From positions 1 through 64,000 of the forward strand of contig JAFRPW010000025.1 of the NCBI GenBank assembly GCA_017428945.1: DNA of 64,000 nt, read 5' to 3'. Source of the stretch: Bacteroidales bacterium. GTDB lineage: Bacteria; Bacteroidota; Bacteroidia; Bacteroidales; UBA932. The position numbers and the translations under genes were made by a program. Of the stretch, positions 48,497-64,000 are shown piece after piece (position 1 is the stretch's first letter; the number at the start of each line of letters is the position of its first letter). The notes under the pieces are model-generated. The model was not told where the DNA came from. It saw only the letters and a program-made list of their open reading frames with translations, and ran no database searches.

Positions 48497-48509
48497 AGTT
48501 TACAAATCG

Positions 48510-48541: not shown

Positions 48542-48611
48542 TCGTGATAATAATTATTTTTAGAATTCGTTTCGCGGGGTTTCGTTTCTATTTCATTTGA
48601 AAAATTTTTAC

Positions 48612-48681
48612 TATATTTGCATCGGAAATGAAATCGCATTTCTATACTTTTTCTGTCCCGGGCTACAAACTGTAACCCCGG
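48612..48681 (+). promoter_or_regulatory. Promoter -7 box and leader hairpin for the outer-membrane/polysaccharide genes
   Basis: TATATTTG (48612-48619) matches the -7 consensus with no clean -33 at the right spacing. The leader contains a stem CCGGG-TACA/TGTA-CCCGG type hairpin (48657-48681) about 40 nt before the ATG at 48721. Confidence 0.55.
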
Positions 48682-48720
48682 CGGCGGAGCCGTTTTCCAG
48701 ATTTCTGATATTATAACATA

Positions 48721-49419
48721 ATGAAAAAGACTGTTTTAACTGGTCTTATCCTCTTATTCGGGGGGTTGACTCTTGTAGCCCAATCCGGCCAATACAGCCA
48801 TGAGGGACACTTCTACGCAGGTATTCAGCAGGGCCCCATGCTAAACATCTACGAGAATTATTTCTCTTACGTAGAGAACAAAAAGCCACTGGACCTAATT
48901 ACTTTCCAGGCTGCCCTTGTAGGCGGTTACGATGTGAACGAGATGTTCGGAGTAAGGCTGACGGCCGGCTATGCGAAGAATGCCGCCGCGTGCAATACCC
49001 ATAATACATCCGCGCACGGTTTCTACCCTTACACTTTCAGCAGCATCAATGTCTTTGCAGACGCCATCCTTGACCTTCAGGGCATGTCTGACAGGCTCAC
49101 TGCTTTCCGCATCAAACTGTACGGTGGTCTTGGCCTTGGTCATTCTTTCAACATGACGGATTCCCAGCACCCCTGGCAGGCGGTGCAGGATCCAAGCACG
49201 GCTTTCGGTTTCCGTTTAGGAGGAATTGCAGAGTATAATATCTTTGAGAATTTCGCCATGTATCTGGATGTCTGTGGCGAGGCTTATTCAGATGAATACA
49301 ACGGTCTTCTGCCCTCTCTCAAAGACCAGACAGACGTTTACGAGGGATATGGCGGATTCCCCTTCGACCTTCGCGGTCTTATTTCTATTGGCTTTATTTA
49401 CAGGTTCGGACAATTCTGA
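48721..49419 (+). CDS. Outer-membrane beta-barrel protein
   Basis: 232 residues with a cleavable signal (MKKTVLTGLILLFGGLTLVAQ). Alternating amphipathic strands (FYAGIQQGPMLNIYE, LVGGYDVNEMFGVRLTAGYA, IKLYGGLGLGHSFN, FRLGGIAEYNIFENFAMYLDV) end in GFIYRFGQF, a C-terminal aromatic typical of outer-membrane barrels. No enzyme signature. It is 2 nt upstream of an OmpA-family gene and heads the plus-strand operon, so it may belong to envelope anchoring of the polysaccharide. Function not established. Confidence 0.8.
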   Translation: MKKTVLTGLILLFGGLTLVAQSGQYSHEGHFYAGIQQGPMLNIYENYFSYVENKKPLDLITFQAALVGGYDVNEMFGVRLTAGYAKNAAACNTHNTSAHGFYPYTFSSINVFADAILDLQGMSDRLTAFRIKLYGGLGLGHSFNMTDSQHPWQAVQDPSTAFGFRLGGIAEYNIFENFAMYLDVCGEAYSDEYNGLLPSLKDQTDVYEGYGGFPFDLRGLISIGFIYRFGQF

Positions 49420-49421
49420 AT

Positions 49422-50564
49422 ATGAAAACGAAATTTATATTTTTGGCAGCGGCACTGATGTCGCTTGGTTTCATTGCATCGGCCCAGGAAGAAAGAGACG
49501 ACCGGTGGGTGTTTGTCGGTACTGGTATCGGCATGAATGTAGGTTTTGACGGCCAGCAGTTCTACGACCGCGAGAATTCCCATGTGGGCGCAGGTCTGGC
49601 CAATGACTCTTACTTTGGATACATGTTCAGCGACTGGGGCGGCTTCAGGGTTGGTTTCCAGGGCCTGAGCATCTCCAACAAGTTCACTGACTTCGGCAGC
49701 AAGAGGTACGAGTACCTGCACGCCGACATGCTCATCAGAGCGGGTAAAAGCGTCCTCCCGTATGTTCACATCGGCCTTGGACGTATAGACAACTTCGCCT
49801 TTGGCGGCGGCGCCGGCGTTATGTTCCCTATATATATCACCAAGCGTATTGCAATTGTGCCCGATATCAAGGCCACCGCATTTAACAACCGCATTTTCGC
49901 GGGGGCAAAGAACCTGCCGTCGGCAACCGTCAGCGCTACTCTGGGTATCAGCGTTAACCTGTGGAAGAACCCTGGCAAGAAGGTTAAAGAACTGCAGGCG
50001 GAGGTGAACTCCCAGAAGGAAGTACTGCAGGAGCAGCAGAAGAGCCTGAGGGCGAAGGATGAAGCCCTGAAGGCAAAGGACGAGGCCCTGAGAGCCCAGG
50101 AGGAGGCAACGCGCCAGGCCCTCCAGAACATCCAGAGGCCTGATATCGTCCGCGACACCGTCCTGGTCACCAGGATCCAGCACGACACCATCGTGGTCAA
50201 CAACGTTACCATGGTGCCCAACGAGATTATCACCACCATGCATGCCGACGCCCTGTTCGACACAGCGTCCGACGTCATCAAGACCGACTACTACTCCCAG
50301 CTTGAGGCAGTCGTCACCTGGATGAAGGAGCACCCTGACGTGGGCATCATCGTCGAGGGTCACACTGACAACGTGGGCAGCAAGGACTTCAACATGAACC
50401 TGTCTCTGCGCCGTGCCCAGAGCGTGAAGACCTTCCTTGTACGCCGCGGCATACGTCCTTCGCTCATCACCATTGAAGGTTACGGCTTCTCAAGGCCTGT
50501 TGCAGACAACAAGACCGAGGAAGGCCGCCAGCAGAACAGACGAGTGGAGGTGAGAGTACGGTAA
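49422..50564 (+). CDS. OmpA-family outer-membrane protein
   Basis: 380 residues: signal (MKTKFIFLAAALMSLGFIASAQ), small beta-barrel (~25-185), a coiled-coil linker (~190-240) with repeated KSLRAKDEALKAKDEALRAQ, and a C-terminal OmpA peptidoglycan-binding domain (ALFDTASDVIKTDYYSQLE, IIVEGHTDNVGSKDFNMNLSLRRAQSVKTFL, QQNRRVEVRVR). It links outer membrane and cell wall. The heptad-like linker is unusually regular. It follows the barrel gene by 2 nt and precedes the flippase by a 126-nt structured gap. Confidence 0.92.
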   Translation: MKTKFIFLAAALMSLGFIASAQEERDDRWVFVGTGIGMNVGFDGQQFYDRENSHVGAGLANDSYFGYMFSDWGGFRVGFQGLSISNKFTDFGSKRYEYLHADMLIRAGKSVLPYVHIGLGRIDNFAFGGGAGVMFPIYITKRIAIVPDIKATAFNNRIFAGAKNLPSATVSATLGISVNLWKNPGKKVKELQAEVNSQKEVLQEQQKSLRAKDEALKAKDEALRAQEEATRQALQNIQRPDIVRDTVLVTRIQHDTIVVNNVTMVPNEIITTMHADALFDTASDVIKTDYYSQLEAVVTWMKEHPDVGIIVEGHTDNVGSKDFNMNLSLRRAQSVKTFLVRRGIRPSLITIEGYGFSRPVADNKTEEGRQQNRRVEVRVR

Positions 50565-50618
50565 ATCACAGAGTTGTTTCGCTTCTCTATAGAACGGACA
50601 TACTGACTATATCAAGTA

Positions 50619-50656
50619 CCCGGAGGCGAATGCCGCACAAGGCTTTGCCCTCCGGG
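50619..50656 (+). promoter_or_regulatory. Stem-loop before the polysaccharide operon
   Basis: A perfect 8-bp stem CCCGGAGG/CCTCCGGG separated by 22 nt, without a following T-run. It sits in the 126-nt gap between the OmpA gene and the flippase. It could be an attenuator or processing site in the leader, possibly the place where the antiterminator matters. Confidence 0.5.
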
Positions 50657-50690
50657 CTACTGATTGTTAACGGAGAGGTTTTTTTACGAG

Positions 50691-52226
50691 ATGAGCGAGA
50701 ACAGGCAACTGGCCAGAAACGTTTTTTTTAACTGCGGCACTTTTTTTATAAACTTGTGCCTGTCCTTCTTCCTGTCTCCATATCTGATACGGACGGTGGG
50801 AAAGGAAGCTTATGGGTTTTACCCGCTCATCAGCAATATAATCGGTTATTCCAGCATAATCTCTTCTGCTATCGGGTCTATGGCAGGCCGTTTCATTACA
50901 ATGTCCTATTACAAGAGGGATTACAAAGAGGCCCAATCTTATTTTAACTCTGTCTTCTTTTCCAATATCGTCCTTTCTGCTTTCTTCGCAGTCCTGACGC
51001 TGGTTGGCATTTTTATCCTTCCCAGGATTCTTCAAATCCCGGATTATCTGCTTTCCGACGTAAAATGGATGTTTGGGTTGTCAGGTTTTGCGATGATCAT
51101 AGGGCTGTGTTTTGGGATTATGGGCATAGGGACATATTTAAAGAACCGTATAGATTTGTCATCGATGACTGACCTGGGTTCACATATTGTGAGCGCCCTT
51201 GTCATTATCTTGCTGTTTGCCTTTTTCAATCCAACAGTAGCTTATGTATCAGTAGCCGCCTTGAGTGCAGCCGTCTTTACCATGGTTGTTAATTTCCATT
51301 GGAAGCGGCGGTTCTTACCAGAGTTTTCAGTACGGCCTTTTTCAGATCACAGCCTCCCCAAGATAAAACAACTGATTACTTCTGGAATCTGGAATTCTGT
51401 CAATCAGCTCAGCAACGTACTACTTACACAATTGGACTTGCTCATAAGCAATATCTTCATCAGCGCAAGCGTAACCGGTGATTATGCACTCGTTAAAATA
51501 ATCCCCAACTTCATGTATTCGTTTCTTGCAGTCCTCTCTGGGTCTTTTACTGCATCTTTCAATATACTCTATGCAAAGGGAGAACTTGAGAAGTTGACTC
51601 AGGAACTTCAGAAAGCAATTAAGATAGTAGGTTACATTGCGTGTCTTCCTCTTGGGTTCATACTGGTATTTGCTAAAGATTTTTTCAGTCTGTGGGTTCC
51701 TTCGGCGGACGCCGGATTCCTTGCAGGGTTGTCATTTCTGACCATTCTTCCTATGATTTTTGGCGCCAGTATCAATCCGGTTTTCGGAGTGTTCACTATC
51801 ACAAATAAACTAAGGGTCCCTTCATTAGTTCTTCTTGGAGCTGGAATCCTGAATACTACTGCCATTTTTATTCTGCTTAAGACCACGTCTTTGGGTATTT
51901 GGGCAATAGTAATAGTCGGTGCCATTCAACACGCTTTGAGGAATTTCTTCTTTAGCCCTACGTACGCAGCACACTGTCTCAAATTGAAATGGTACACGTT
52001 CTACGCCAATATATTAAGATGCTGTATAGGGCTTGGTATTACCGCCGGCGTCGGTCTTCTTGTAAAACAGATTCTATCCGGTGATTCCTGGGCACTTTTG
52101 ATTGCTGAAGGGATTCTTGTTGTGATGATTTCCGGGGCAGCCAATTTATTTATCGTTCTGAAACGTTCTGACAGGGAATACCTGGTCAGTTGGATAAAGA
52201 GCCATCTCGCATACGATGAAAATTAA
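50691..52226 (+). CDS. Oligosaccharide flippase (Wzx-like)
   Basis: About 511 residues from the ATG at 50691; a TTG nine codons upstream is the alternative. A polytopic membrane protein of 12-14 helices with the MATE/Wzx start NVFFNCGTFFINLCLSFFLSPYLIRTVGKEAYGFYPL and FVLISNIF-type central region (LLTQLDLLISNIFISASVTGDYAL). It would move undecaprenyl-linked repeat units across the inner membrane. First gene of the tightly packed polysaccharide operon, overlapping the radical SAM gene by 11 bp. Confidence 0.9.
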   Translation: MSENRQLARNVFFNCGTFFINLCLSFFLSPYLIRTVGKEAYGFYPLISNIIGYSSIISSAIGSMAGRFITMSYYKRDYKEAQSYFNSVFFSNIVLSAFFAVLTLVGIFILPRILQIPDYLLSDVKWMFGLSGFAMIIGLCFGIMGIGTYLKNRIDLSSMTDLGSHIVSALVIILLFAFFNPTVAYVSVAALSAAVFTMVVNFHWKRRFLPEFSVRPFSDHSLPKIKQLITSGIWNSVNQLSNVLLTQLDLLISNIFISASVTGDYALVKIIPNFMYSFLAVLSGSFTASFNILYAKGELEKLTQELQKAIKIVGYIACLPLGFILVFAKDFFSLWVPSADAGFLAGLSFLTILPMIFGASINPVFGVFTITNKLRVPSLVLLGAGILNTTAIFILLKTTSLGIWAIVIVGAIQHALRNFFFSPTYAAHCLKLKWYTFYANILRCCIGLGITAGVGLLVKQILSGDSWALLIAEGILVVMISGAANLFIVLKRSDREYLVSWIKSHLAYDEN

Positions 52227-53310
52227 AAGGTACATAGAGTGTTTTGTTCCTGTGACAACTTGTACGTTACGTTGCCACTACTGCTACATAACCGTTCACC
52301 GGAAGTTTGAAGGGCCGCTGCCCACATTCAATTATTCCCCTGAACAGGTCAGGCATGCGCTTTCCGTAAAGCGCATGGGAGGCGTTTGTCTAATCAATCT
52401 ATGTGCTGGAGGAGAAACCCTGCTCACACCTGATATTGTAGAGTATATACGCGTACTGCTGGAGGAAGGGCACTTTGTAATGGTTGTAACCAACGGAACT
52501 GTGACAAAGCGTCTTAATGAGCTGGCAGCATTGCCTTCAGGACTGCTCAGGCATCTGATATTCAAGTTTTCATATCATTATTTGGAGTTGAAGAAACGCG
52601 GCCTGACAGATCAGTTCTTTTCAAATATCCGAATGATGCGTGACGCAGGTTGTTCTTTTGTCCTGGAAGTAACGCCATCTGATGAATTGATTCCATATAT
52701 CGATGAAGTGAAGGACCTGGCGATACAGAATGTTGGGGCGGTCCCTCATGTTACTATTGCGCGTGATGAACATGACCCTGACAAACTACCTGTACTTACA
52801 AAACTGACCGACGAAGAGTACAAAAAGGTCTGGGGCGCATTCGATTCAGAAATGTTCCGTTATAAAACAACAATATTCGGAGTCAAACGTCGTGAATTCT
52901 GTTATGCCGGAGACTGGTCTTTTTATGTGGATCTGACCACCGGTGAAATGTCCCAGTGTTATCAGTCCTGGTTTAAACAGAATATCTTTGAGAATCCGGA
53001 AAAACCTATCAGATTTGTTCCCATGGGGAAGCATTGCAAAGAGTATCATTGTTACAACGGGCATGCATTCATAACTCTTGGAGACATTCCTGAATTGGAT
53101 GCACCAAGTTATCTAAACATCAGAGACCGTTTATGTCCGGATGGCTCACACTGGGTTAAACCGGAAGTCGCAGAATTGTTCTCTTCCAAATTGAGAGAGT
53201 CAAACCGGGAATACACCCGAATAGAAAAAGGGTGGTTTGAACTGTGCTTTGCCGGCAGACGTTGTGCCGCCCGCTCAAAACACCTGATCAAACACATCAT
53301 CGGCAAATGA
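52216..53310 (+). CDS. Radical SAM protein in polysaccharide operon
   Basis: 364 residues. The radical SAM cluster motif CTLRCHYC (Cys16, Cys20, Cys23; CxxxCxxC) and the GGE-like motif CAGGETLL are present, followed by VVTNGT. The C-terminal half adds several Cys (REFCYAGDWSFYVDLTTGEMSQC, KHCKEYHCYNG) that could hold an auxiliary iron-sulfur cluster, SPASM-like in position. Reaction unknown; placement between flippase and pyruvyltransferase suggests sugar or phosphoryl-substituent modification. It overlaps both neighbours. Confidence 0.85.
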   Translation: MKIKRYIECFVPVTTCTLRCHYCYITVHRKFEGPLPTFNYSPEQVRHALSVKRMGGVCLINLCAGGETLLTPDIVEYIRVLLEEGHFVMVVTNGTVTKRLNELAALPSGLLRHLIFKFSYHYLELKKRGLTDQFFSNIRMMRDAGCSFVLEVTPSDELIPYIDEVKDLAIQNVGAVPHVTIARDEHDPDKLPVLTKLTDEEYKKVWGAFDSEMFRYKTTIFGVKRREFCYAGDWSFYVDLTTGEMSQCYQSWFKQNIFENPEKPIRFVPMGKHCKEYHCYNGHAFITLGDIPELDAPSYLNIRDRLCPDGSHWVKPEVAELFSSKLRESNREYTRIEKGWFELCFAGRRCAARSKHLIKHIIGK

Positions 53311-54269
53311 ATCGCTTCAAAGTTATCATAGATTCAACACTCGCGCCACTCATCGACCGGGATTATGTCTTCCTGGACCTTCCGTACCATGGCAACGCGG
53401 GTGATTCATTCATCTATGCCGGGGTTATGGATTTTTTGTCTGCTACGGGTCACAAATGCCTTTACAAGTGTTCTGAAAACACATTTGATGGACGGGCTAT
53501 CGGCCAAGACACGATGATTGTGTTTAATGGCGGAGGAAATTTTGGCGATATGTGGCCGGACTGTACCGAGTTTCGAAACAGGATTATTTCCAGGTATCCA
53601 GACAACAAGTATATCGTTTTCCCTCAAAGCGTTTACTATAGTGATAGGGCAAACCTTGAAAGAGACATGTCTCTATATTCCAAATGCAAGGATATGACAA
53701 TATGCGCTCGTGATGATGAGTCTTTTTCGTTCCTTTCTCAGCATTTTACATGCAATAGGATTCTGAGGGTGCCGGATATGGTGTTTCATATTCCTGATAA
53801 TATGTTGTTTAATGGTAACAAATCTGCTGGAAAGAGTTTGTTTATCAAGCGTAATGATCGTGAGACTGTGAGCAGGCTGTTCTTGGACAATGTTCCTCAC
53901 GACGCCGAAATTAAGGATTGGCCAACAATAGATTGCAAGAAGGGATGGCCATATGTCATATGGAGATATTTCCGGAAGTTGGTTGGCCTTTTTGACCGTA
54001 TGGGACTGAACAAGATGGCGTTGCACATGTCCGATTTCTATTGGCAGAAAGTGATTATTCCCTATAATATCCGTACAGGATTCAAGCTTATTGGAGCATA
54101 TGACACGGTATACACAACCAGGCTCCATGCTGCACTTGCCGGTGTTCTTCTTGGAAAAAACGTAGTTGCTTTTGACAATGTATACGGCAAGCTTTCTTCT
54201 TATGTGAATACTTGGATGAAAGACAGCCCGTCAATTAGGGTTTTTCAAAATAATCAGGCCGGACTGTGA
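53307..54269 (+). CDS. Polysaccharide pyruvyltransferase family protein
   Basis: 320 residues from the ATG at 53307, which overlaps the stop of the radical SAM gene (ATGA); an upstream in-frame Met inside that gene is rejected. Family PF04230 features are DLPYHGNAGDSFIYAGVMDFL, the glycine motif VFNGGGNFGDMWP, VFPQSVYY, ICARDDESFSFL, VPDMVFHI and a late TTRLHAALAGVLLGK. Such enzymes add ketal pyruvate from phosphoenolpyruvate to sugars, giving negative charge. The substrate sugar is unknown. Confidence 0.88.
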   Translation: MNRFKVIIDSTLAPLIDRDYVFLDLPYHGNAGDSFIYAGVMDFLSATGHKCLYKCSENTFDGRAIGQDTMIVFNGGGNFGDMWPDCTEFRNRIISRYPDNKYIVFPQSVYYSDRANLERDMSLYSKCKDMTICARDDESFSFLSQHFTCNRILRVPDMVFHIPDNMLFNGNKSAGKSLFIKRNDRETVSRLFLDNVPHDAEIKDWPTIDCKKGWPYVIWRYFRKLVGLFDRMGLNKMALHMSDFYWQKVIIPYNIRTGFKLIGAYDTVYTTRLHAALAGVLLGKNVVAFDNVYGKLSSYVNTWMKDSPSIRVFQNNQAGL

Positions 54270-55216
54270 TGAAAAAACTTTCAATCGTCATACCTGTCTA
54301 TAAAGTCGAGGACTACGTAGGGCAATGTCTCCAATCGGTCTTTGACGGAGGATGTGACGAGAGCAAGTATGAGGTGATTGTCGTGAATGACGGCACACCG
54401 GACAAATCCATGGATGTGGTACGGAGGGTTTGTGAAGGGCACGGCAACGTCCAGATCATACAACAGGAAAACCATGGGCTCTCTGCTGCGAGAATGACTG
54501 GACTCGCACATGCTGAAGGAGAATATGTCTGGTTTGTTGACAGCGATGACTGGCTTGAGGCCGGAGCTGTGGATTCTATTATCAGGATATTGCTTCTCCA
54601 TTCAGGCATTTCAGTTCTTGCAATGCCTTTGATATGGATTAGCAAAAGCACTACCAGATACGAAAATGATTTCAAGGATGTAATTGCGCACAAAGGTAAA
54701 GACCTCCTTCAGGAAGGGTACCCATTGTCGGCAATCCAGCGTTACATTATTCATCGTGATGTTTTCAAAAACAAGAGTGTTTACTTTCCACGCGGACTGA
54801 TACACGAAGACGAGTATTTCTACCGTACCATGCTTTACAATGCCCCGGAAGTCCTGGTGCTTGAATCGTCCTTTTACTACTACCGTCAACGTGAGAAATC
54901 CATCATGAGCAGCAGGTCTATCCGCTCTTGTCATGACGTTGTATCTGTTTACAGACTTTTGGAAGGCTTCCTAAATAGCTCTGTCGACCACCAGGATAAA
55001 AAATGGTTCAAGCGCAGTATCGTATCATTATTGCTTCACAGCTATAAATACAGCTATAGTATTACCAGCAAAAAAGAAGCAGAAGCTTACCGTAGGAAAT
55101 ATCGTTGGTACGTCCTTCGCCAAGGATTGTTTTGCTATGGTTTTTCAATTAAGGAAAGATTGTGGATTGTAAGTCTCACCCTCTTTCCCATACTCTTAGA
55201 TACACATCAAAGATGA
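54269..55216 (+). CDS. Family 2 glycosyltransferase
   Basis: 315 residues. Start at ATG 54269, overlapping the preceding TGA; a GTG one codon earlier is possible. GT-A fold: LSIVIPVYKVEDYVGQCLQS, VIVVNDGTPDKS, the ENHGLSAARMTGL helix, and DxD motif WFVDSDDWLE. HEDEYFYRTMLYNAP provides the ED catalytic-base region. It adds one sugar of the repeat unit on the cytoplasmic side. Donor unknown. The end overlaps the next gene by 4 bp. Confidence 0.92.
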   Translation: MKKLSIVIPVYKVEDYVGQCLQSVFDGGCDESKYEVIVVNDGTPDKSMDVVRRVCEGHGNVQIIQQENHGLSAARMTGLAHAEGEYVWFVDSDDWLEAGAVDSIIRILLLHSGISVLAMPLIWISKSTTRYENDFKDVIAHKGKDLLQEGYPLSAIQRYIIHRDVFKNKSVYFPRGLIHEDEYFYRTMLYNAPEVLVLESSFYYYRQREKSIMSSRSIRSCHDVVSVYRLLEGFLNSSVDHQDKKWFKRSIVSLLLHSYKYSYSITSKKEAEAYRRKYRWYVLRQGLFCYGFSIKERLWIVSLTLFPILLDTHQR

Positions 55217-55980
55217 AAATGGTCCAATTTCTTAAGACTGTCGCCAAGTGGCTGCGGCTTAAGTTTTTACAACTAGAAGTGCTGATTAAGGTTGTTTGGT
55301 GGAAATTAAGAGGAGGGACCATGCCGGAGTATCATTCTATTCCCATTATTATCAATAACTATAACAGGCTGGATTCTTTAAAGCAGTTGATACATTCTCT
55401 TGAGAGCCGTGGTTATGCCAATATAATTATACTTGATAATGCCTCAACATACCCTCCCTTGCTGGAGTATTATAAAACGATTCCTTACGATGTGGTCCAC
55501 CTGGGCGGCAACTACGGCTTTATGGCCCTATGGAGGACTGCCGTTTACAAAAGATTCAAGAGTTCGTTTTACGTTTATACTGACCCGGACATCGTTCTGG
55601 ACAAGCAGTGCCCGGACGATTTTATGGAATTCCTTCTTTCTTCACTTAAACGGCATCCATCTTGTCTAAAGATAGGATTGGGAATCAGGATCGATGACTT
55701 GCCGGACTGTTATAAGGATAAAAGCCATGTTGTTTCCTGGGAAACCCAGTACTGGCAGAATAGGGTGGACGATTACCTTTTCATAGCCAGAGTAGACACT
55801 ACTTTTGCTTTATACCGTCCTTATTGCAAGGGCGGTTCAAGCCCTCATCTCACATATCGGACAGACTTCCCCTATGTCATACGACACCTTCCCTGGTACA
55901 ATGATTCGAATAATCTTTCAGATGAAGAGCGCTATTATATTGCGCACTCAAAGACTGCAACTCATTGGACCAGTCGGTAG
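55213..55980 (+). CDS. Family 2-like glycosyltransferase
   Basis: 255 residues from ATG 55213, overlapping the previous stop as ATGA; longer starts would lie inside the upstream gene. N-terminal hydrophobic/amphipathic segment (KTVAKWLRLKFLQLEVLIKVVWW), then GT-A elements: IPIIINNYNRLDSLKQLIHSL, NIIILDNASTYPPLLEYY, GGNYGFMALW, and the DxD-like YTDPDIVLD. Short for the family, without the usual C-terminal extension. Probably membrane-associated through its N-terminus. Confidence 0.85.
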   Translation: MKMVQFLKTVAKWLRLKFLQLEVLIKVVWWKLRGGTMPEYHSIPIIINNYNRLDSLKQLIHSLESRGYANIIILDNASTYPPLLEYYKTIPYDVVHLGGNYGFMALWRTAVYKRFKSSFYVYTDPDIVLDKQCPDDFMEFLLSSLKRHPSCLKIGLGIRIDDLPDCYKDKSHVVSWETQYWQNRVDDYLFIARVDTTFALYRPYCKGGSSPHLTYRTDFPYVIRHLPWYNDSNNLSDEERYYIAHSKTATHWTSR

Positions 55981-55988
55981 AATATAGA

Positions 55989-56933
55989 ATGCCTTTTATC
56001 TCTTTCGTCCTTCCTGCCTGGAAAAGCCTCCACCTCAGGGAGGCCGTTGCAAGTATCATTGCACAAACGTGTTCTGATTGGGAACTGGTGGTGGTGGATG
56101 ACTGTTCTCCCGAGCCCCTGGATGTAATAATAAACTCCTTTGAAGACTCCAGAATCAGGTATTATAGGAATTCTGAGAATCTGGGCGGCAAGAATCTTGT
56201 CAAGCAATGGAACCACTCAATTTCATATGCAAAAGGTGAGTTTATAGTTCTTGCAGCTGATGATGATGTATATCGGCCTTCTTTTTGTGAACAAGTGACG
56301 CGACTGTCCGGAAAGTATCCCCAAGTGGACGTCATACATTCTTCCGTAGAACAGATTGACGAAGACGGCAACCATTTATGGGACGACAGTATTCTGCCCG
56401 AGTTTACCAACAAGTATGAGTATCTTAACTGGTGGCTCACTGGGCGTTCTTTTACTTGTATAGGTAATTTTGCATTCAGGCGCACGGCGCTTAAAGAACT
56501 TGGTGGTTTTATTGACTTCCCCTGTGCATTTGGGTCTGATATTGCCACACCAATCTCTCTCTCCAGGAATGGCGTTGCCAACACCCCTGAAATGCTTTTC
56601 TGTTTCAGACAGTCCCGAAACCACCTTTCCGCTGACTCGTCCCGCTTTAAAGAAAAACTGGAGGCCGTTTCTCTTCTTTATGAGTTTCTGCTTTCCCTCC
56701 ACTACGAAGTTCCTGATAGTCCACAGGACAGATTATTTTATTCAATAGTGAATAAGGATTATCTTCACAAGAAATGCATATATGATTATTACAACCTTGT
56801 AATCAAACACCTTCCCCAAGAGCGGCTGTTCTCCTATATTAGGCTTTGCCGCCTGGCTTCATATAAGGATAAGTTCATTATGGTTCTGCGCTGGATAAAG
56901 AACAGGTTTGAGCAAACATTGTTATACGCATGA
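55989..56933 (+). CDS. Family 2 glycosyltransferase
   Basis: 314 residues from ATG 55989; a TTG eight codons earlier is less likely. GT-A motifs: ISFVLPAWKSLHLREAVASI, ELVVVDDCSPEPL, RYYRNSENLGGKNLVKQWN, and DxD region VLAADDDVYRPSF. The late GSDIATPISLSRNG is in the position of the ED base region. Overlaps the licD start by 4 bp. One of three family-2 enzymes in the operon, so the repeat unit probably has at least four sugars including the priming sugar. Confidence 0.92.
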   Translation: MPFISFVLPAWKSLHLREAVASIIAQTCSDWELVVVDDCSPEPLDVIINSFEDSRIRYYRNSENLGGKNLVKQWNHSISYAKGEFIVLAADDDVYRPSFCEQVTRLSGKYPQVDVIHSSVEQIDEDGNHLWDDSILPEFTNKYEYLNWWLTGRSFTCIGNFAFRRTALKELGGFIDFPCAFGSDIATPISLSRNGVANTPEMLFCFRQSRNHLSADSSRFKEKLEAVSLLYEFLLSLHYEVPDSPQDRLFYSIVNKDYLHKKCIYDYYNLVIKHLPQERLFSYIRLCRLASYKDKFIMVLRWIKNRFEQTLLYA

Positions 56934-57715
56934 AACAACTCACGCCGCCGGAAATAAAGGAATCTTTACTGTCAATACTGAATTCTGTCACACTTTTTTG
57001 TCAGAAGAACAATATTCAGTATTATCTGGCATGGGGTACACTAATAGGCGCAGTTAGACACAAGGGTTTTATTCCGTGGGACGACGACATAGATATCTGG
57101 ATGCCTCGTTCAGATTATAATCGTTTCATCGAGCTGTATGACAATCAAATCTTCCACTTCCGGTCTATGCAGACCGAAGAAGACTTTCCGTTGTGTTTTG
57201 GAAAAGTTTGTGATGAACGGTTCAGCGCCATAGACGAGTACGACAAAGACTTTGGTTTGTATGTTGACATATTCCCGTTGGACGGGTTACCAACAGATTT
57301 GACCGATGCCAAAAAGCATATCAATAGAATCCGCCGGCAAGAAGTGCTTTGGAGCAGCCAGGTATTAACACGAAGGATGCCCATATCTATCAAGCTGCCC
57401 GCAAAAAAGATTCTGAAAATTATTGGAGCCAGGCTGATTCATCCTTTTGTATCTGTTAAGAAAATACGTGAAAAACTTACTCTCTTATGCGAGAAATACA
57501 AATGGGAAGATTCAGTTAACATCATAGATTATTCCGTAAATTGTGTTTTCAATAAGGGCATGTTCGTTCCGTCAGATGAAAGAGTATTTGAAGGATATAC
57601 TTATTTTGTACCTGGAGATTACGATTCAATCCTTCGGATGTACTACGGAAACTATATGGAAATCCCTCCCGAGAGCGAGCGCATTAATCACGGGATAAAA
57701 GCTTATCTTAAATGA
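56930..57715 (+). CDS. licD: LicD-family phosphocholine transferase
   Basis: 261 residues. LicD signature: YYLAWGTLIGAVRHKGFIPWDDDIDIWMPRSDYNRFIEL, with the GxxxGAxRHxGFIPWDDDID metal/nucleotide motif intact, then YVDIFPLDGLP. LicD moves phosphocholine from CDP-choline to a sugar of a surface glycan. The specific assignment to choline, rather than another phosphoalcohol, rests on the adjacent licC, licA and BCCT transporter genes; LicD-like proteins alone are functionally broad. Overlaps both neighbours by 4 bp. Confidence 0.9.
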   Translation: MKQLTPPEIKESLLSILNSVTLFCQKNNIQYYLAWGTLIGAVRHKGFIPWDDDIDIWMPRSDYNRFIELYDNQIFHFRSMQTEEDFPLCFGKVCDERFSAIDEYDKDFGLYVDIFPLDGLPTDLTDAKKHINRIRRQEVLWSSQVLTRRMPISIKLPAKKILKIIGARLIHPFVSVKKIREKLTLLCEKYKWEDSVNIIDYSVNCVFNKGMFVPSDERVFEGYTYFVPGDYDSILRMYYGNYMEIPPESERINHGIKAYLK

Positions 57716-58575
57716 ACGCAATTATCTTGGCGGCGGGGATTGCCTCTCGTTTCGTTCCTCTTTCTTATGAGAAGCCAAAGGGGCTTTTTGAAGTAAGGGG
57801 AGAAAGGCTGATAGAACGGCAAATCAGACAACTTTTACAAGCCGGTGTTTCAGATATTACACTGGTTCTTGGCTATAAAGCGGAATTGTTTCAATATCTG
57901 AGAGAGAAATATGGTGTCAAAACCGTTTTAAACGAGGACTATCGTCGTTATAATAATATTTCTTCCCTAGTAAAGGTTATTGATTGTTTAGACAATACTT
58001 TCATTTGTTGTTCTGATCATTATTTTAACAGAAATGTGTTTCTGGAACAGCCCGGACACAGTTATTATGCTGCATTATTCGCAAATGGTGAGACTAATGA
58101 GTACTGTTTGACCACAAACGAGAATGATCAGATTGTTGAGGTCGGGGTTGGAGGTGCGAATTGCTGGTATATGGCGGGGCACGCCTTTTTTTCACACGAT
58201 TTTTCTGTAGTATTCAAGCGCTTCCTTGAACATGACTATAAGAATGAGTCTATGAGGCACTTCTATTGGGAGGATGTATTTGTTCGTCATCTGAAATATT
58301 TGCCCATGAGTATCATGCGATGCTGTGATGATGACATCAGAGAATTTGACACATTCGATGAACTGCGTTGTTTTGACTCGTCATATTTAATGGATAGCCA
58401 GTCTTCAATTATAAAAGACATTTGCATGCAAATGGGATGCAATGAATGGGAGCTGACGGGATTTCAAGTCATTCCAGAAATAAAAGAGTCCTTTATGTTC
58501 TGCAAATCCGGAATGAAGTATGGCTTCAACATAAAAACAAGGGTTATTCACGATATGTCAACCGAAGCCCGATGA
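57712..58575 (+). CDS. licC: LicC-like CTP:phosphocholine cytidylyltransferase
   Basis: 287 residues. Nucleotidyltransferase start MNAIILAAGIASRF.PLSYEKPKGLFEV (the GxGxR loop reads GIASR), then LVLGYKAELFQYL, REKYGVKTVLNEDYRRYNNISSL, CCSDHYF, NGETNEYCL and FYWEDVFVRHL, a series very like pneumococcal LicC. It would make CDP-choline for LicD. The chain is ~55 residues longer than LicC. The extra tail (NEWELTGFQVIPEIKESFMF...KYGFNIKT) resembles the N-terminal lobe of choline-kinase-type proteins and may be the vestige of a former LicC-LicA fusion (inference). Confidence 0.88.
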   Translation: MNAIILAAGIASRFVPLSYEKPKGLFEVRGERLIERQIRQLLQAGVSDITLVLGYKAELFQYLREKYGVKTVLNEDYRRYNNISSLVKVIDCLDNTFICCSDHYFNRNVFLEQPGHSYYAALFANGETNEYCLTTNENDQIVEVGVGGANCWYMAGHAFFSHDFSVVFKRFLEHDYKNESMRHFYWEDVFVRHLKYLPMSIMRCCDDDIREFDTFDELRCFDSSYLMDSQSSIIKDICMQMGCNEWELTGFQVIPEIKESFMFCKSGMKYGFNIKTRVIHDMSTEAR

Positions 58576-58578
58576 GGT

Positions 58579-59469
58579 ATGGAGACTAGTGATAATATAA
58601 TTGTATTGAGAGGTCTGCTGTCCGAGTTGTTACCTGAGAAAGATGCGCTGTCTGCAGAGATTGCCCCGATAGGAGGAATGAGCAATTGTAATTACCTCAT
58701 AAGCTTTCCTGATTCCAGTTTTGTTCTTCGCGTTCCGGGAAAAGGCAGTGAAGGAATGATTTTTCGGGATAACGAGAGGTATAACTCCATTATCGCATAC
58801 CAACTGGGCTTGTGCCCGGAGGTTCGTTTATTGGATCCCGATACAGGTATAAAGATTACAGATTATATCAAAGATTCTGAGTCTTTGTCCGCGGATACAA
58901 TTCAGGACTCTGAGAATCGTGGCAAAGTGGCCAGTGTTCTTCGTCATCTTCATTACTCATCAAAGCAACTTAAGAACGAATTCAATATATTTGGAGAGAT
59001 TGACCATTATCAAAGCCTGTTGGATAAAACACATGCCGTTATGTATCCCGGGTGGGAAGGTTTCAAGTCAAAAGTAATGGATATAAAGACTCGCCTGGAC
59101 AGAATAGGAGTATCTATAGTACCCTGCCACAATGACCCCGTCCCTGAGAATTTCTTAAAAAACCATAACGGAAGTGTATTCCTTATCGATTGGGAGTACA
59201 GTGGAATGAACGATCCAGTTGCCGATATAGCCGCATTGTTTTTAGAAAGCAATTTTTCCTCTGATAACCGCTACTTGTTTCTTACGGAATACTATTCAGA
59301 AGATAGTATTCCTTTATGGATAAATGAAAAGATTCTTTCTTATCAGATTCTTTGGGACTGTTTATGGGCACAATGGACTGTAATTAAAGAATCAAATGGA
59401 TATGATTTCGGCCGTTACGGCAGAGACAGGTTTGAACGCGCTGTTTATAATTTAACGCAGTTGTCTTAA
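58579..59469 (+). CDS. licA: LicA-like choline kinase
   Basis: 296 residues of the APH/choline kinase fold. N-lobe glycine region IAPIGGMSNCNYLISFPDSSFVLRVPG, catalytic Brenner-type loop VPCHNDPVPENFL (Asp and Asn), and metal-binding LIDWEYSGMNDPVADIA. It phosphorylates choline with ATP, the first step to CDP-choline. The order licD-licC-licA is the reverse of the Haemophilus lic1 locus. Separated from licC by 3 nt and from the transporter by 16 nt. Confidence 0.9.
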   Translation: METSDNIIVLRGLLSELLPEKDALSAEIAPIGGMSNCNYLISFPDSSFVLRVPGKGSEGMIFRDNERYNSIIAYQLGLCPEVRLLDPDTGIKITDYIKDSESLSADTIQDSENRGKVASVLRHLHYSSKQLKNEFNIFGEIDHYQSLLDKTHAVMYPGWEGFKSKVMDIKTRLDRIGVSIVPCHNDPVPENFLKNHNGSVFLIDWEYSGMNDPVADIAALFLESNFSSDNRYLFLTEYYSEDSIPLWINEKILSYQILWDCLWAQWTVIKESNGYDFGRYGRDRFERAVYNLTQLS

Positions 59470-59485
59470 CACGTTATATCCAGCC

Positions 59486-61003
59486 ATGACAAATCGGTTA
59501 ACACATCGTATTGATTGGGTAAAAACAATTATCCCATTTGTAGGAGTATTAGCTCTCTTTTTTGTATTCCTTTTATTTCCCTACAGCTCACAAACTGCTC
59601 TTGAACGAATCAGGCATTATATCGGTGACGACTGCGGATTGTATTTTGCCGTTTTAGGACTATGCGTATTTCTATTGTCAGTTTGGACGGCGTTTTCAAA
59701 ATATGGGAAGATCCGTTTGGGAAATACGGACAAACCACAGTACAACAGCTTTATTTGGGGTGCCATGATTTTTACATCAGCACTTGCTGCTGATATTGTT
59801 TTTTATTCGCTATGCGAGTGGTCTTTGTATGCTTCCAACGAATACGTGGAGACATTAGGAGAGGCGGAATTATGGATACCAACTATGCCACTGTTCCACT
59901 GGGGACCCATCGCGTGGTGCTTCCATATCGTGCTGGCTATATGCTTTGGTTTTATGATGCATGTCCGGCAGAGGAATAGACAGTGCTTTTCAGAAGCTTG
60001 TCGGCCTTTACTCGGGACATATCTTGACAGAGGGTGGGGACGCTTAATAGATATCGTTTCATTTATAGCAATGCTGGCCGGAATAGCAACTACCTTTTCT
60101 CTGGCCACCCCACTATTATCCTCCTCTATCTGCAGATTGTTCGGGATTGACAGTAATATATATTTGACAGTTTCAATCCTAATAGTAGTCGCAGTTATAT
60201 ATACAAGTGCAGTGTTGTTTGGGATGAAAGGTATTTCCAGATTAGCAAAGTGGTGTACATATTCTTTTGCTGCACTGTTGTTGTATGTTCTGTTACTGGG
60301 AGGAGAGACCCGTTTTATTCTTGAGACCGGCTTTCAGAGTATTGGGAATCTGATTCAGCATTTCTTTGGGCTTGCCACCTATATGGACCCCCTTCGCGAG
60401 AATTCGTTTCCTCAAAACTGGACTCTGTTTTATTGGGCATATTGGATAGCCTGGACAATTGGGACGCCTTTTTTCATCGCGTTAATCAGTAAAGGGAGAA
60501 CAATCAAAGAAACCATACTGGGCGGTTACGGATGGGCTCTCGCCGGCACTTTCTCATCTTTTATCATTCTTGGTAATTATGGTGTTGCCCAGCAATTAAA
60601 ACATGGGGTCGATATAATAGGCTTTATTGATCAAGGAGGGTCGTATTCCGATGCAATACTTCAAATAATCCAGACTCTTCCAGCCCCACAGCTTGTCCTC
60701 ATTGTTCTGGTTATAACGATGGTCTTGTTTTATTCTACGTCGTTTGACACTTTGTCTTTAATCGCTTCATCATATTCCTACAAATCCCTGTCGGCCAGCG
60801 AGGTTCCGGATAAAAGGATAAGAGTGCTCTGGGCTTTAGTCTTTATTCTTCTTCCCATTGGTCTTTTGTTTTCTGACAGTTCAATGTATGGGTTACAATC
60901 TGTCAGCATAATTGCAGCTTTCCCGGTAGGTATTATTATTATACTAATCATCATTTCTTTTTTCAAGGATGCCCGTCTCTACCTTAATGAAAAGAAGATT
61001 TAA
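59486..61003 (+). CDS. BCCT-family choline/betaine transporter
   Basis: 505 residues, about 12 transmembrane helices. BCCT signature WTLFYWAYWIAWTIGTPFFIALISKGRTIKE plus FHWGPIAWCFHIVLAICFG (conserved Trp-rich TM4 region) and FYSTSFDTLSLIASS. BCCT carriers take up choline, betaine or carnitine driven by sodium or protons. Following licD-licC-licA it should supply choline, the role of LicB in other species, though from a different transporter family. It overlaps the next start by 17 bp. Confidence 0.92.
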   Translation: MTNRLTHRIDWVKTIIPFVGVLALFFVFLLFPYSSQTALERIRHYIGDDCGLYFAVLGLCVFLLSVWTAFSKYGKIRLGNTDKPQYNSFIWGAMIFTSALAADIVFYSLCEWSLYASNEYVETLGEAELWIPTMPLFHWGPIAWCFHIVLAICFGFMMHVRQRNRQCFSEACRPLLGTYLDRGWGRLIDIVSFIAMLAGIATTFSLATPLLSSSICRLFGIDSNIYLTVSILIVVAVIYTSAVLFGMKGISRLAKWCTYSFAALLLYVLLLGGETRFILETGFQSIGNLIQHFFGLATYMDPLRENSFPQNWTLFYWAYWIAWTIGTPFFIALISKGRTIKETILGGYGWALAGTFSSFIILGNYGVAQQLKHGVDIIGFIDQGGSYSDAILQIIQTLPAPQLVLIVLVITMVLFYSTSFDTLSLIASSYSYKSLSASEVPDKRIRVLWALVFILLPIGLLFSDSSMYGLQSVSIIAAFPVGIIIILIIISFFKDARLYLNEKKI

Positions 61004-61823
61004 GCAGAGCGCTGTCTGGCGGTTATTACGCGAGTGCAAAGTGTTGGCGGAACACCGAAGAGTGGCTGGGATATGCCGTGACTTGATTGACGAGTATAGT
61101 GCCCAGCCGTGTAATTATGCGATCAGGCCCAAAGTTGATTTGGGAACAGATATGATTATCTGGCAGTATTGGTCACAAGGCTTTAATCAAGTTCCATCTA
61201 TAGTCCGGAAATGCTTGGAGTCTGTTGAAAAGAATATTGGGGATTACAAGATTATACGTCTTTCAGATGATAACATAACGGACTATCTGGATATCCCTTC
61301 TTTTGTCTTGCAGAAACGTACAGCTTTCAATGTCGCAATGTTCTCTGATATACTCCGTCTCATGCTTTTGAAAGCATATGGTGGAGTATGGCTGGATGCT
61401 ACAGTGTTTCTTTCAAAACCTATCCCGTCAGAGTATTATCATAATGATGTGTTTTTTTATCGCCGAGATCCCAAAGAGCCGGATTACAAGTATTGGAGGA
61501 ACACATATGCCTATTATTTTGGGTGGACAAAAGGTTTCAGGGTAAATATGCTGAACAGTATCCTATTTGCCAAAAAGGACAATCCCTACATATCCTATTT
61601 GTGCAATGTCATGCTATTCTGGTGGCAACATCACAATACAATACCATATTATTTCTTTTTTCAGATACTTTGTGACGTATATGGGTACCCTCTGGAAATG
61701 CCACTTGTAAGTGATACTCTTCCACATTACCTTCAGCAGGCCATGAATGATTCGCACTTCAAAATAATGTCCCGCGATGATATTCTGGATAATATTCCTA
61801 TTCATAAACTGACATACAAATAA
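60987..61823 (+). CDS. Capsular polysaccharide synthesis glycosyltransferase (Caps_synth type)
   Basis: 278 residues from ATG 60987; an in-frame ATG at 60969 is possible. Family PF05704 features: MIIWQYWSQGFNQVPSIVRKCLESVEKN, YKIIRLSDDNI, AFNVAMFSDILRLMLLKAYGGVWLDATVFLSKPIP, with the DILR...GGxWxDAT block binding nucleotide sugar and metal. Transfers a further residue to the repeat unit. The donor is not predictable. Confidence 0.88.
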   Translation: MKRRFKQSAVWRLLRECKVLAEHRRVAGICRDLIDEYSAQPCNYAIRPKVDLGTDMIIWQYWSQGFNQVPSIVRKCLESVEKNIGDYKIIRLSDDNITDYLDIPSFVLQKRTAFNVAMFSDILRLMLLKAYGGVWLDATVFLSKPIPSEYYHNDVFFYRRDPKEPDYKYWRNTYAYYFGWTKGFRVNMLNSILFAKKDNPYISYLCNVMLFWWQHHNTIPYYFFFQILCDVYGYPLEMPLVSDTLPHYLQQAMNDSHFKIMSRDDILDNIPIHKLTYK

Positions 61824-61824
61824 T

Positions 61825-62313
61825 ATGTCTCTCAAAGAGCTTCTTCTGGATTGGCTGATTCGCCCAGAAAAGTATTATATCAATAAATACCTTCTCTATT
61901 TGCGGAAAGAAGAGAAGTATACGTTCATTTCACCTAACAAGGTCCTTGCTTTTTGGTACCGCGGCAAAAAAAACCGCTTGGGCGCCCGTATTGGCTTTAT
62001 TATTCATGCTGGTTGTTTTGACGAAGGGCTGACATTGGAGCATTATGGATCTGTTATTGTCAATCCTAAGGCAAGAATAGGCAAGAATTGCACTATACAT
62101 GGCAATTGCTGTATAGGAAGCACTGGCGGATATCCTGATGATTCTCCTATCATTGGGGATAATGTGGATATTGGACAGTTTGCCCAGATTCTTGGAGGTA
62201 TCCATATTGCAGATGGCGTAAGGATTGGTGCCGGTGCAGTTGTGGTCAAGGATATCATGGAAGAAGGTGCCACTGTTATTGGAATCCCAGGCAGAATCAA
62301 GAATCATGACTGA
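61825..62313 (+). CDS. Left-handed beta-helix O-acetyltransferase
   Basis: 162 residues. Hexapeptide repeats dominate from residue ~70: HYGSVIVNPKARIGKNCTIHGNCCIGST, PIIGDNVDIGQFAQILGGIHIADGVRIGAGAVVVKDI, ending GIPGRI, as in serine-acetyltransferase-like (CysE/WcaB) enzymes. Near polysaccharide genes it most likely acetylates a sugar of the glycan rather than serine. 1 nt after the preceding stop; overlaps the next gene by 8 bp. Confidence 0.88.
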   Translation: MSLKELLLDWLIRPEKYYINKYLLYLRKEEKYTFISPNKVLAFWYRGKKNRLGARIGFIIHAGCFDEGLTLEHYGSVIVNPKARIGKNCTIHGNCCIGSTGGYPDDSPIIGDNVDIGQFAQILGGIHIADGVRIGAGAVVVKDIMEEGATVIGIPGRIKNHD

Positions 62314-63370
62314 AATCCTGACACGTCAGTCAACTCTTATCAAGGCGATGCGGTTCCCCTTGATTGTGATGGTACTTATCATCCATTCTCCAGGAGCCTA
62401 TTCTTCTTCTGAAATGGAGTGGTCTTTAGAAGGATGGAATATTTATCATTTTTTTGCCGAACTTCTTTCAGGACATATTTCTGCTATTGCAACAAGGTGT
62501 TTCTTTCTCTTTAGCGGATTCTTGTTCTTCCGCTATCTGAAAGATGGAGAGTTCTGCATGTCGTGGGTACTGTCCAAATGGAAGAAAAGAGTCTTTACAC
62601 TGCTGATTCCTTACATTTTCTGGAATTTGCTACTGGTGGCTGCAGTAGTGTTAAAGAATAGTGTCTTCGGTGCGTTTTCACTCGGTGAAAGCCCGGAAGA
62701 GATGTCACTCGTTCATCAAGGCCCCCTATTCTGGTTTGTCACCGGACCTGCTGATTATCCGTTATGGTACTTGAGGGATCTGATGGTAATGACTCTTCTA
62801 ACCCCTCTTATTTACTGCTTAATCAAGTATTTACGCCGGGCATCACTGGTTTTGTTGGTTCTATTGTACTATGCCCCTTTACAGTTTCCCTTTAATCAGG
62901 CATTGTTCTATTTTGGGATTGGAGCATGGCTTGGCATCAATCATAAGGACTTGATTCCCCTTTGTCATAAAGTAAGGATTCCAGCGGCTGTAGCAGCCTT
63001 CATGCTATTACCTGTAGCCACTTCGCAAGTGGGACGGCCTATGCATCTGCTGCTCTTTAAGTGTTACATCCCACTGGGAATAATCACTTTCATTAACATT
63101 TGCGACTTCATGACCAGAAATGACGTGATTCGCAATAAGTTATGTGCGTTGTCAGGAAGCGTGTTCTTCATCTATGCTGTTCACGAAATATATATTCTCG
63201 GCTGGACCAAGGGTCTTTGCCTTCGTTTGCTTGGGGATTCTCTTGTTGCAACATGGCTGCGTTATTTTCTTGTTCCCGTAATTGTCCTTGGAATATGCTT
63301 GTTACTCTATAAGTTATTGAACAGATGGTCGCCCCGGGCTTTGGCTTTTGCCTGCGGAGGGCGTACTTAA
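62306..63370 (+). CDS. Acyltransferase-3 family membrane protein
   Basis: 354 residues from ATG 62306; an upstream in-frame GTG or ATG inside the acetyltransferase gene is rejected. About ten transmembrane helices. PF01757 elements: STLIKAMRFPLIVMVLIIHS (His near TM1), TRCFFLFSGFLFF, KWKKRVFTLLIPYIFWNLL and LWYLRDLMVMTLLTPLI. Such proteins O-acylate sugars across the membrane. With the soluble acetyltransferase this suggests two acyl decorations on the exported glycan. Confidence 0.88.
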   Translation: MTEILTRQSTLIKAMRFPLIVMVLIIHSPGAYSSSEMEWSLEGWNIYHFFAELLSGHISAIATRCFFLFSGFLFFRYLKDGEFCMSWVLSKWKKRVFTLLIPYIFWNLLLVAAVVLKNSVFGAFSLGESPEEMSLVHQGPLFWFVTGPADYPLWYLRDLMVMTLLTPLIYCLIKYLRRASLVLLVLLYYAPLQFPFNQALFYFGIGAWLGINHKDLIPLCHKVRIPAAVAAFMLLPVATSQVGRPMHLLLFKCYIPLGIITFINICDFMTRNDVIRNKLCALSGSVFFIYAVHEIYILGWTKGLCLRLLGDSLVATWLRYFLVPVIVLGICLLLYKLLNRWSPRALAFACGGRT

Positions 63371-63382
63371 CCATAGCTTCCC

Positions 63383-64000
63383 ATGATTCCCCTTGCCATA
63401 GCATTCACTCCCAATTACATTGTCCCGGCGGCCACGATGCTTAAATCGTTGCTGGATTCATCGGCCGATACGTTTCATATTATTTGCTTGGTTACGGAAG
63501 AGATACCCCGTGAGATGCAGGAGATGCTGTACAAAATGGGGAATGGGAGGTTAGAGATGGAGTATTTTCCCCTAAAAGGACGCCTGGACGGTTATTATAC
63601 GGACGCAAGGTATTCTGAAGCTGCGTCTTTCCGCTTGCTCCTGCCGGAGCTGCTCCCTGACTATGAAAAGATCCTGTATCTGGACTGTGATATTGTTGTG
63701 CGGCAGGATATGGGCGCTTTGTACCGTAATACGGATTTGGAGGATAACTATCTGGCGGCCGTTTACGAGGCGCCCATTGAAGGGCAGGCCGACCGGATAA
63801 GAGCTTTGGGATGCATACCCGGACAGTATTTCAATTCCGGTATGTTGCTTATGAACCTTAAGCAAATGAGGGAGGAAAAAGTGTCAACCAGGCTATTGAA
63901 AGCCTGCGAGAAAGACTATATGGAATTCCCGGACCAGGATGCCCTGAATCAGGTTTGTCAGGGGAGAGTCCTGCCGATAAGTCCTGTCTATAACGGAATT
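63383..64000 (+). CDS. Family 8 glycosyltransferase (partial)
   Basis: 206 codons from ATG 63383, open to the window edge, so the C-terminus is missing. GT8 features: IPLAIAFTPNYIVPAATMLKSLL, the DxD motif ILYLDCDIVVRQD, QYFNSGMLLMNLKQMR and FPDQDALNQ. GT8 enzymes are retaining galactosyl- or glucosyltransferases acting on lipopolysaccharide or capsule. Same strand and 12 nt after the acyltransferase, so part of the same operon. Confidence 0.9.
   Translation, partial: MIPLAIAFTPNYIVPAATMLKSLLDSSADTFHIICLVTEEIPREMQEMLYKMGNGRLEMEYFPLKGRLDGYYTDARYSEAASFRLLLPELLPDYEKILYLDCDIVVRQDMGALYRNTDLEDNYLAAVYEAPIEGQADRIRALGCIPGQYFNSGMLLMNLKQMREEKVSTRLLKACEKDYMEFPDQDALNQVCQGRVLPISPVYNGI

Follow-up and report, generated by a model that had tools for sequence, protein, structure and literature searches.

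A LicD-LicC-LicA-BCCT gene cassette in a Bacteroidales polysaccharide operon as a predicted route to phosphocholine decoration

We analyzed a stretch of 64,000 nucleotides (the window; positions 1 to 64,000 of contig JAFRPW010000025.1, assembly GCA_017428945.1) from a Bacteroidales bacterium of the UBA932 lineage. It carries genes for LicD, LicC, LicA and a BCCT transporter at 56930-61003 on the forward strand. The cassette was confirmed to be real: the four genes are intact, nearly contiguous and situated inside a polysaccharide locus. We consider it very likely that they constitute a lic-type cytidine diphosphate (CDP)-choline pathway that puts phosphocholine on capsular polysaccharide. Choline would enter via BCCT, LicA would phosphorylate it and LicC would make CDP-choline. 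LicD would transfer phosphocholine to a repeat-unit sugar, probably on the cytoplasmic side, before export by the flippase. Each of these enzymatic activities, the use of this operon's polysaccharide as LicD acceptor and the display of the product on the surface are predicted. The initial annotation had read the genes as a route from choline to phosphocholine on a glycan. At the level of sequence this interpretation is supported by the LicA pocket residues, an Asp in BCCT, the absence from the genome of phosphoenolpyruvate (PEP) mutase and of any extra CDP-alcohol phosphotransferase, and the linkage of BCCT to licC/licA.

None of the four reading frames contains an internal stop. LicD overlaps both the preceding glycosyltransferase gene and licC by 4 bases, and gaps of 3 and 16 bases separate licC from licA and licA from the BCCT gene. 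Pfam scores exceeded the respective cut-offs for LicD (153.5 against 22.6 bits), Choline_kinase (83.5 against 29), BCCT (381.8 against 27) and LicC as NTP_transf_3 (46.5 against 27). The adjacency and coordinates initially annotated were correct, as was the placement of the cassette in a flippase/glycosyltransferase operon: flippase, pyruvyl transferase, glycosyltransferase and Caps_synth genes were found around it, with Wza-like and Wzc-like genes past the window edge (Table 1). The statement that all motifs are intact held for WDDDID in LicD and for LAAG, PK and the acidic metal-site residues in LicC, but LicC has GIASR where the consensus is GXG(T/S)R. Note that related LicCs vary there too (GTSSR in L045, GFASR in L052). 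To call the gene order reversed relative to lic1 was loose, the order being D-C-A-transporter here and A-B-C-D in lic1.

The best solved relative of LicA is the pneumococcal choline kinase (Table 1). In that enzyme Tyr197, Trp251, Trp254, Tyr268 and Val178 surround the quaternary amine of choline, Glu213 lies at the pocket rim, and Asp176 and Thr29 are positioned on the choline hydroxyl (PMC4364537). Seven of these eight positions are identical in the window LicA; the eighth is Ser in place of Thr29, and the T29S variant of pneumococcal LicA is fully active (PMC4364537). Such a pocket is not general to this fold: in the LicA-like proteins of the order that matched less well (L033-L037), Val178 is replaced by Gln and Trp254 by Val. 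Val178 and Glu213 are not strict markers, because many BCCT-linked LicAs depart from the pneumococcal enzyme there, with Tyr for Glu213 in Treponema putidum. By its residues, the window LicA is a predicted choline kinase of the kind a lic-type pathway needs.

LicC matched pneumococcal LicC more strongly than PntC (Table 1). In the residue comparison we took the LicC labels to be D107, W136, Y190, W191 and D218. The protein shares 42% identity with the LicC half of T. putidum LicCA, whose neighbor is a BCCT 47% identical to that of the window. The LicCA of T. denticola makes CDP-choline (PMC8590670). LicC and PntC are named by context, PntC near PEP mutase genes and LicC near lic genes such as licA (PMC6697681). 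Here licA is adjacent, and no match to PEP mutase was found in the window genome, which is 96.8% complete. By sequence, the window LicC is predicted to serve as the cytidylyltransferase of a lic-type pathway, with mixed residues at two selectivity positions that are considered below.

BCCTs carry quaternary amines. The cassette transporter matched this family in Pfam and, below the cut-off of 407.55 bits, in NCBIfam (bcct, 382.6 bits), and it is the single BCCT of its genome. In an alignment of 53 rows, one of which (L005) repeats part of the window, its Asp103 was kept in 30/30 aligned database relatives of the clade. The same column holds Asp in E. coli BetT, annotated as a choline:H+ symporter, Ala in CaiT and Gly in 19/19 generic BCCTs of the same order. 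Likewise, Tyr319 in transmembrane helix 8, the site of the tryptophan-rich BCCT signature, is shared by the window protein and 30/30 relatives, with Trp in CaiT, BetT and all 19 generic BCCTs. We take the column of Asp103 to be that of Gly153 in BetP, which itself lay outside the alignment. The BetP variant G153D is described as choline-specific (PMC6400524). It is conceivable that the transporter has betaine, carnitine or a sulfonium osmolyte as its substrate and that it stands beside the lic genes by chance. The nearest solved BCCT structure is that of DddT (280 bits, compared with 160 for CaiT), a dimethylsulfoniopropionate transporter, and Asp alone is no proof of choline because DddT has it in this column too. 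With the BetT-type Asp in the window protein and all aligned relatives, the only BCCT of the genome lying in this operon, and the clade linked to licC/licA in three phyla, we judge a chance association highly improbable.

This linkage was seen in a BCCT search of database contigs, which yielded 34 loci of the clade. LicA lies less than 700 bases from BCCT in 24 of them and farther off in three (L072, L074, L075). In two metagenome-assembled genomes (MAGs) labelled Prevotella (L043, L045), BCCT, LicA, LicC and LicD occur together with a glycosyltransferase gene nearby, and BCCT stands beside LicC/LicA relatives in T. putidum (L055) and T. vincentii (L053). None of the 20 generic loci found in the order (L012-L031, with flanks of about 1-1.5 kb or less and L030 a fragment) contained LicA, LicC or LicD, nor did two generic BCCT loci from the genus for which longer flanks were available (L090, L091). 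A tree of 58 BCCTs, cleared of partial and duplicate rows, placed 35 lic-type rows on one side of a single branch (100/99). The window BCCT grouped first with the congeneric L086 and L087 (99/99), with L044 and the Prevotella-labelled L043 as next neighbors within a wider Firmicutes/spirochaete set. CaiT, BetT, L072 and L089 carry a long-branch warning. Note that the unity of the lic rows is partly by construction, since they had been selected for their resemblance to the window BCCT; their linkage to LicA is not.

Thus, a lic-linked BCCT clade spans Bacteroidota, Firmicutes and spirochaetes and usually adjoins licC/licA, indicating that LicB has been replaced by BCCT recurrently. Where a strict lic1 operon has LicB, the present cluster has a BCCT (PF02028), and none of the operon genes scanned with Pfam and NCBIfam matched a drug/metabolite-transporter family, LicB elsewhere in the genome not having been searched for. 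The annotated use of BCCT instead of LicB therefore stands for this locus but is not peculiar to it. The cassette is rare, occurring in 5/350 sampled genomes of the genus and 1/393 of the order. The genus sample contained a lic-type BCCT in G000 (the window genome), G667, G672, G725 and, as a partial match, G765. In each of these five, LicA is either the neighboring gene or separated from BCCT by a single gene; another three genomes had generic BCCTs. In the family sample, the window genome itself was the only one of 199 with a BCCT above the cut-off. In the order sample 20/393 genomes matched BCCT, all except the window genome at ≤30% identity apart from one short fragment, and 9/393 matched LicA, only the window genome with more than 92 bits. 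The database BCCT closest to that of the window (71%) is on a contig labelled Lachnospiraceae UBA3772 (L044). This contig is probably misbinned Bacteroidota, because it carries an outer-membrane porin-like gene.

Several observations weigh against a choline-to-glycan pathway. LicA was not seen in seven of the 34 clade loci (L046, L056, L057, L063, L068, L070, L076). In L056, L063 and L070 the sequence ends no more than 15 bases upstream of BCCT, and the BCCT match is broken in L068 and partial in L076, leaving L046 and L057 as real exceptions. The generic loci that serve as controls are flanked by only about 1-1.5 kb. In the transporter, the third aromatic-box position is His147, where 26/30 relatives have Tyr. 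LicC is the enzyme that prefers phosphocholine and PntC the one that prefers aminoethylphosphonate, and residues pointing to this selectivity are D105 and D192 of pneumococcal LicC, both Glu in T. denticola PntC (PMC6697681). The window LicC has Cys100 and Glu187 at these positions, one of the two resembling PntC; in the T. putidum enzyme they are occupied by Ser and Glu. As evidence on specificity, these residues are ambiguous.

The LicC residues could suit a pathway that adds a different amine, such as phosphoethanolamine, aminoethylphosphonate or a methylated ethanolamine, and a B. fragilis capsule is known to carry aminoethylphosphonate (PMC12413058). We regard such a product as quite unlikely in view of the complete choline pocket of LicA and the BetT-type Asp of BCCT. 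In addition, pneumococcal LicC favors phosphocholine over phosphoethanolamine 2700-fold, a figure that belongs to the pneumococcal enzyme (PMC6697681). A phosphonate was rejected because PEP mutase, which the Pnt pathway requires, is absent from the genome. The initial annotation had itself named ethanolamine and glycerol as substrates of LicA and LicC that would overturn its reading; a transporter of quaternary-amine type and the LicA pocket make them unlikely, although the selectivity residues of LicC are ambiguous.

Further points against phosphocholine on a glycan concern LicD. LicD-family enzymes handle several phospho-groups, and the presence of LicD does not by itself determine which of them is transferred. 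Within the flanks available, LicD was present in just 11/34 BCCT-clade loci. The congeners G667, G672 and G725 carry the cassette without LicD within about 7 kb, that of G672 lying among housekeeping genes. Each of them encodes LicD at another site, twice next to a gene for a polymerase-like protein or a glycosyltransferase (L097, L102), and a fourth congener, G765, has no LicD match at all. Moreover, the window LicD gave a sub-cut-off match (97.6 bits, cut-off 225) to Mycoplasma Mf1, a diacylglycerol cholinephosphotransferase. The Mf1 match, the low LicD count and the LicD-less cassettes of G667 and G672 would be consistent with synthesis of CDP-choline for a lipid, either phosphatidylcholine or a phosphocholine glycolipid, with LicD acting on the lipid; T. 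denticola LicCA feeds phosphatidylcholine synthesis (PMC8590670). However, LicD of the window overlaps the preceding glycosyltransferase gene in a polysaccharide operon. The window genome encodes two CDP-alcohol phosphotransferases, within the range of one to three in six congeners without a lic-type BCCT (G022, 2; G041, 1; G601, 2; G779, 2; G647, 2; G588, 3), and therefore offers no extra candidate for a phosphatidylcholine route, which would argue against this product unless one of the existing two serves it. The cassette-bearing congeners G667 (55% complete), G672 and G725 have 0, 1 and 2, respectively. We thus consider a lipid product unlikely. Use of phosphocholine on a glycan is the simpler reading for the window, since LicD is in the operon; the congeners may use it either way.

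Six close loci contain an additional gene directly before the licC/licA part, encoding a protein of 234-246 amino acids with a signal-like N-terminus (alignment A1; Table 1). Three of four sequences tested gave a sub-cut-off match to the TorF putative porin family. A rough AlphaFold model of three rows (mean predicted local distance difference test score 64) has 12 strands, and Foldseek matched it to outer-membrane barrels, with OmpG at the top and NanC and KdgM, both specific porins, also included. Matches to A1 occurred in 65/350 genus genomes; the three above 400 bits were rows of A1 itself, beside licC, and none of 17 weaker matching loci with short flanks (L104-L120) contained a lic gene. 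We read the protein as a putative porin that, in these relatives, serves the cassette specifically for the passage of choline across the outer membrane. No homologue was found in the window genome (E up to 1), and G765 (L089) likewise has no porin before its cassette. The annotated claim that every step from uptake to glycan is encoded does not extend to crossing of the outer membrane.

LicA also occurs fused behind a divergent nucleotidyltransferase-like domain in nine loci (L043:3367-4962, L044:1387-2973, L045:6388-7974, L050, L051, L052, L054, L065 and L066). The domain has an altered N-terminal signature, ILTAR(K/R)ER in L043-L045, and by eye the Firmicutes forms have an added N-terminal helix-turn-helix-like segment. 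A separate LicC is found within the available sequence of 6/9 loci (L043, L044, L045, L051, L052, L066), and the fused domain possibly has a regulatory role.

The window genome contains a second lic-like cluster (C35, 9.7-16.4 kb; L009) with LicD, a second LicD-like gene, a fused LicC-kinase of 517 amino acids, another LicC-like enzyme and, named by eye, amidohydrolase-like and dehydrogenase-like open reading frames (ORFs). Relative to the pneumococcal pocket, the kinase half has Tyr for Val178, Asp for Glu213 and Ser for Tyr268, and the LicC half carries Met at a position that is aromatic in most others. Only the Ser268 and the Met are telling, because Val178 and Glu213 are variable among BCCT-linked LicAs as well. 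On account of the altered pocket and the Met, we tentatively do not count this cluster as a duplicate choline-specific pathway. It perhaps handles a CDP-activated amino-alcohol other than choline.

The features of the locus are listed in Table 1. The contig (C16; 99,323 bases) continues beyond the window with further glycosyltransferases and the Wza-like and Wzc-like genes; our guess at the polymerase is a 424-amino-acid ORF without Pfam match (L010:2099-3373). The G+C content is 39.7-44.7% from the flippase to the membrane acyltransferase gene and 39.7-41.6% in the four lic genes, compared with 50.2% for the window and 55.6% for an OmpA-like gene just upstream, as expected of a horizontally exchanged capsule locus. 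Genes for an UpxY antiterminator (115.5 bits, cut-off 100) and a WcaJ-like initiating sugar transferase lie divergently from the operon at 46590-48424 on the reverse strand; the UpxY gene, like the relatives labelled Prevotella, fits an origin in Bacteroidales. The 5' end of a 16S ribosomal RNA gene is at the contig start (window 1-162, reverse strand). The radical-SAM gene inside the operon has a weak viperin-like match at its N-terminus (near residues 13-98); a defense function was rejected, this probably being a generic radical-SAM match. Phase variation by an invertible promoter was likewise dismissed: nine pairs of inverted repeats in 46300-50800, of which those closest to exact span 14-17 bases, included none that was convincing. 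No tetranucleotide arrays of at least four units were present in 50664-64000, and the lic genes contain no short tandem arrays.

Table 1. Genes of the cassette, its operon and related loci (positions refer to the window unless prefixed; aa, amino acids)
Feature	Position	Strand	Evidence or remark
LicD-family phosphotransferase, 261 aa, proposed phosphocholine transferase onto glycan	56930..57715	+	Pfam PF04991 153.5 bits; WDDDID residues 50-55
LicC, cytidine triphosphate (CTP):phosphocholine cytidylyltransferase, 287 aa	57712..58575	+	PDB 1jyk (pneumococcal LicC) E 1.6e-31, 113 bits; PntC 6pd1 37.5 bits
LicA, choline kinase, 296 aa	58579..59469	+	PDB 4r77 (pneumococcal LicA) E 2.5e-64, 220.5 bits; choline pocket
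BCCT transporter, 505 aa, proposed choline importer of lic-linked clade	59486..61003	+	PF02028 381.8 bits; Asp103; tree; lic linkage
Wzx-like flippase, 520 aa	50664..52226	+	PF01943 33.9 bits (cut-off 28.2); NCBIfam WZX_like below its cut-off
Radical-SAM protein	52216..53310	+	17 sub-cut-off NCBIfam matches, mostly radical-SAM; weak viperin-like match
Polysaccharide pyruvyl transferase	53307..54269	+	PF04230 93.1 bits (scan from 53244; start 53307 chosen)
Family 2 glycosyltransferase	54266..55216	+	PF00535 94.8 bits
Glycosyltransferase, family-2-like	55162..55980 (start may be 55213)	+	PF00535 21.7 bits, just below cut-off 23.3
Family 2 glycosyltransferase, directly before LicD	55965..56933	+	PF00535 80.8 bits
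Caps_synth glycosyltransferase, directly after BCCT	60969..61823 (start may be later)	+	PF05704 194.2 bits
Hexapeptide-repeat acyltransferase	61825..62313	+	PF00132 40.9 bits
Membrane acyltransferase, family 3	62225..63370 (true start probably later)	+	PF01757 87.2 bits
Glycosyltransferase-like ORF, open at window end	63383..64000	+	Named by eye only
Wza-like gene, past window edge	C16:70657-71406		Same contig
Wzc-like gene, past window edge	C16:71363-73795		Same contig
Small outer-membrane barrel genes of relatives	L043:2630-3370, L044:660-1385, L045:4790-5521, L086:5085-5789, L087:10997-11737, L088:5802-6533		

What appears to be new is a lic pathway that is fed by a BCCT, lies in a Bacteroidales-type polysaccharide operon and forms part of a wider lic-linked BCCT clade. 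In the open-license literature we found no description of phosphocholine on a Bacteroidales capsule or of a licC/licA-BCCT cassette. A survey of 26 phosphocholine-expressing species contains none of the strings "bacteroid", "BCCT" and "betT" in the part of its text that was accessible (PMC10434233). In a 2019 survey of human gut genomes, 97 Bacteroidetes included, LicB is reported from Actinobacteria, Firmicutes and Proteobacteria alone, and BetT from just the last two of these phyla (PMC6620236). The lic-linked BCCT clade provides a genetic marker for phosphocholine-capable genomes that LicB searches miss. More generally, we lean towards the view that Bacteroidota carry a transferable, LicB-independent choline cassette (porin, LicC, LicA and BCCT) parallel to lic1, and that some of them, including the porin-less window bacterium, decorate capsular polysaccharide with phosphocholine. 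Host C-reactive protein and natural antibodies recognize phosphocholine on bacterial surfaces. The initial annotation proposed that such a surface could bind C-reactive protein, PAF receptor or choline-binding proteins. If our reading is true, Bacteroidales would join the bacteria able to shape these responses to phosphocholine, and host or dietary choline would be tied to capsule chemistry.

Among known systems, Clostridium immunis, which belongs to another phylum, resembles the present case as a commensal with phosphocholine on an extracellular polysaccharide. Its phosphocholine-modified exopolysaccharide is cited in PMC12355684. The Pnt pathway for aminoethylphosphonate, proposed for B. fragilis type capsules, likewise places a cytidine monophosphate-activated amino-phospho group on a glycan, and PntC is a relative of LicC (PMC6697681). 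In contrast to the present pathway, it needs PEP mutase, which the window genome lacks. With regard to its other components, we know of no choline kinase or BCCT in the Pnt pathway. The LicCA system of the T. denticola type shares relatives of LicC and LicA with BCCT next door, as seen in T. putidum and T. vincentii. It differs in that LicC and LicA are separate genes here and LicD is in the operon, whereas the T. denticola product is phosphatidylcholine (PMC8590670). Bacteria with lic1 use exogenous choline to decorate a surface glycan (PMC10434233). The window cassette differs from lic1 (licABCD of Haemophilus, commensal Neisseria and pneumococcus) in having BCCT rather than LicB, another gene order, a Wzx-type polysaccharide operon and no short-repeat phase-variation tract in the 50664-64000 region scanned. 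Such short-repeat phase variation is a feature of Haemophilus licA. What the cassette has in common with lic1 is LicA, LicC and LicD together with a dedicated uptake gene.

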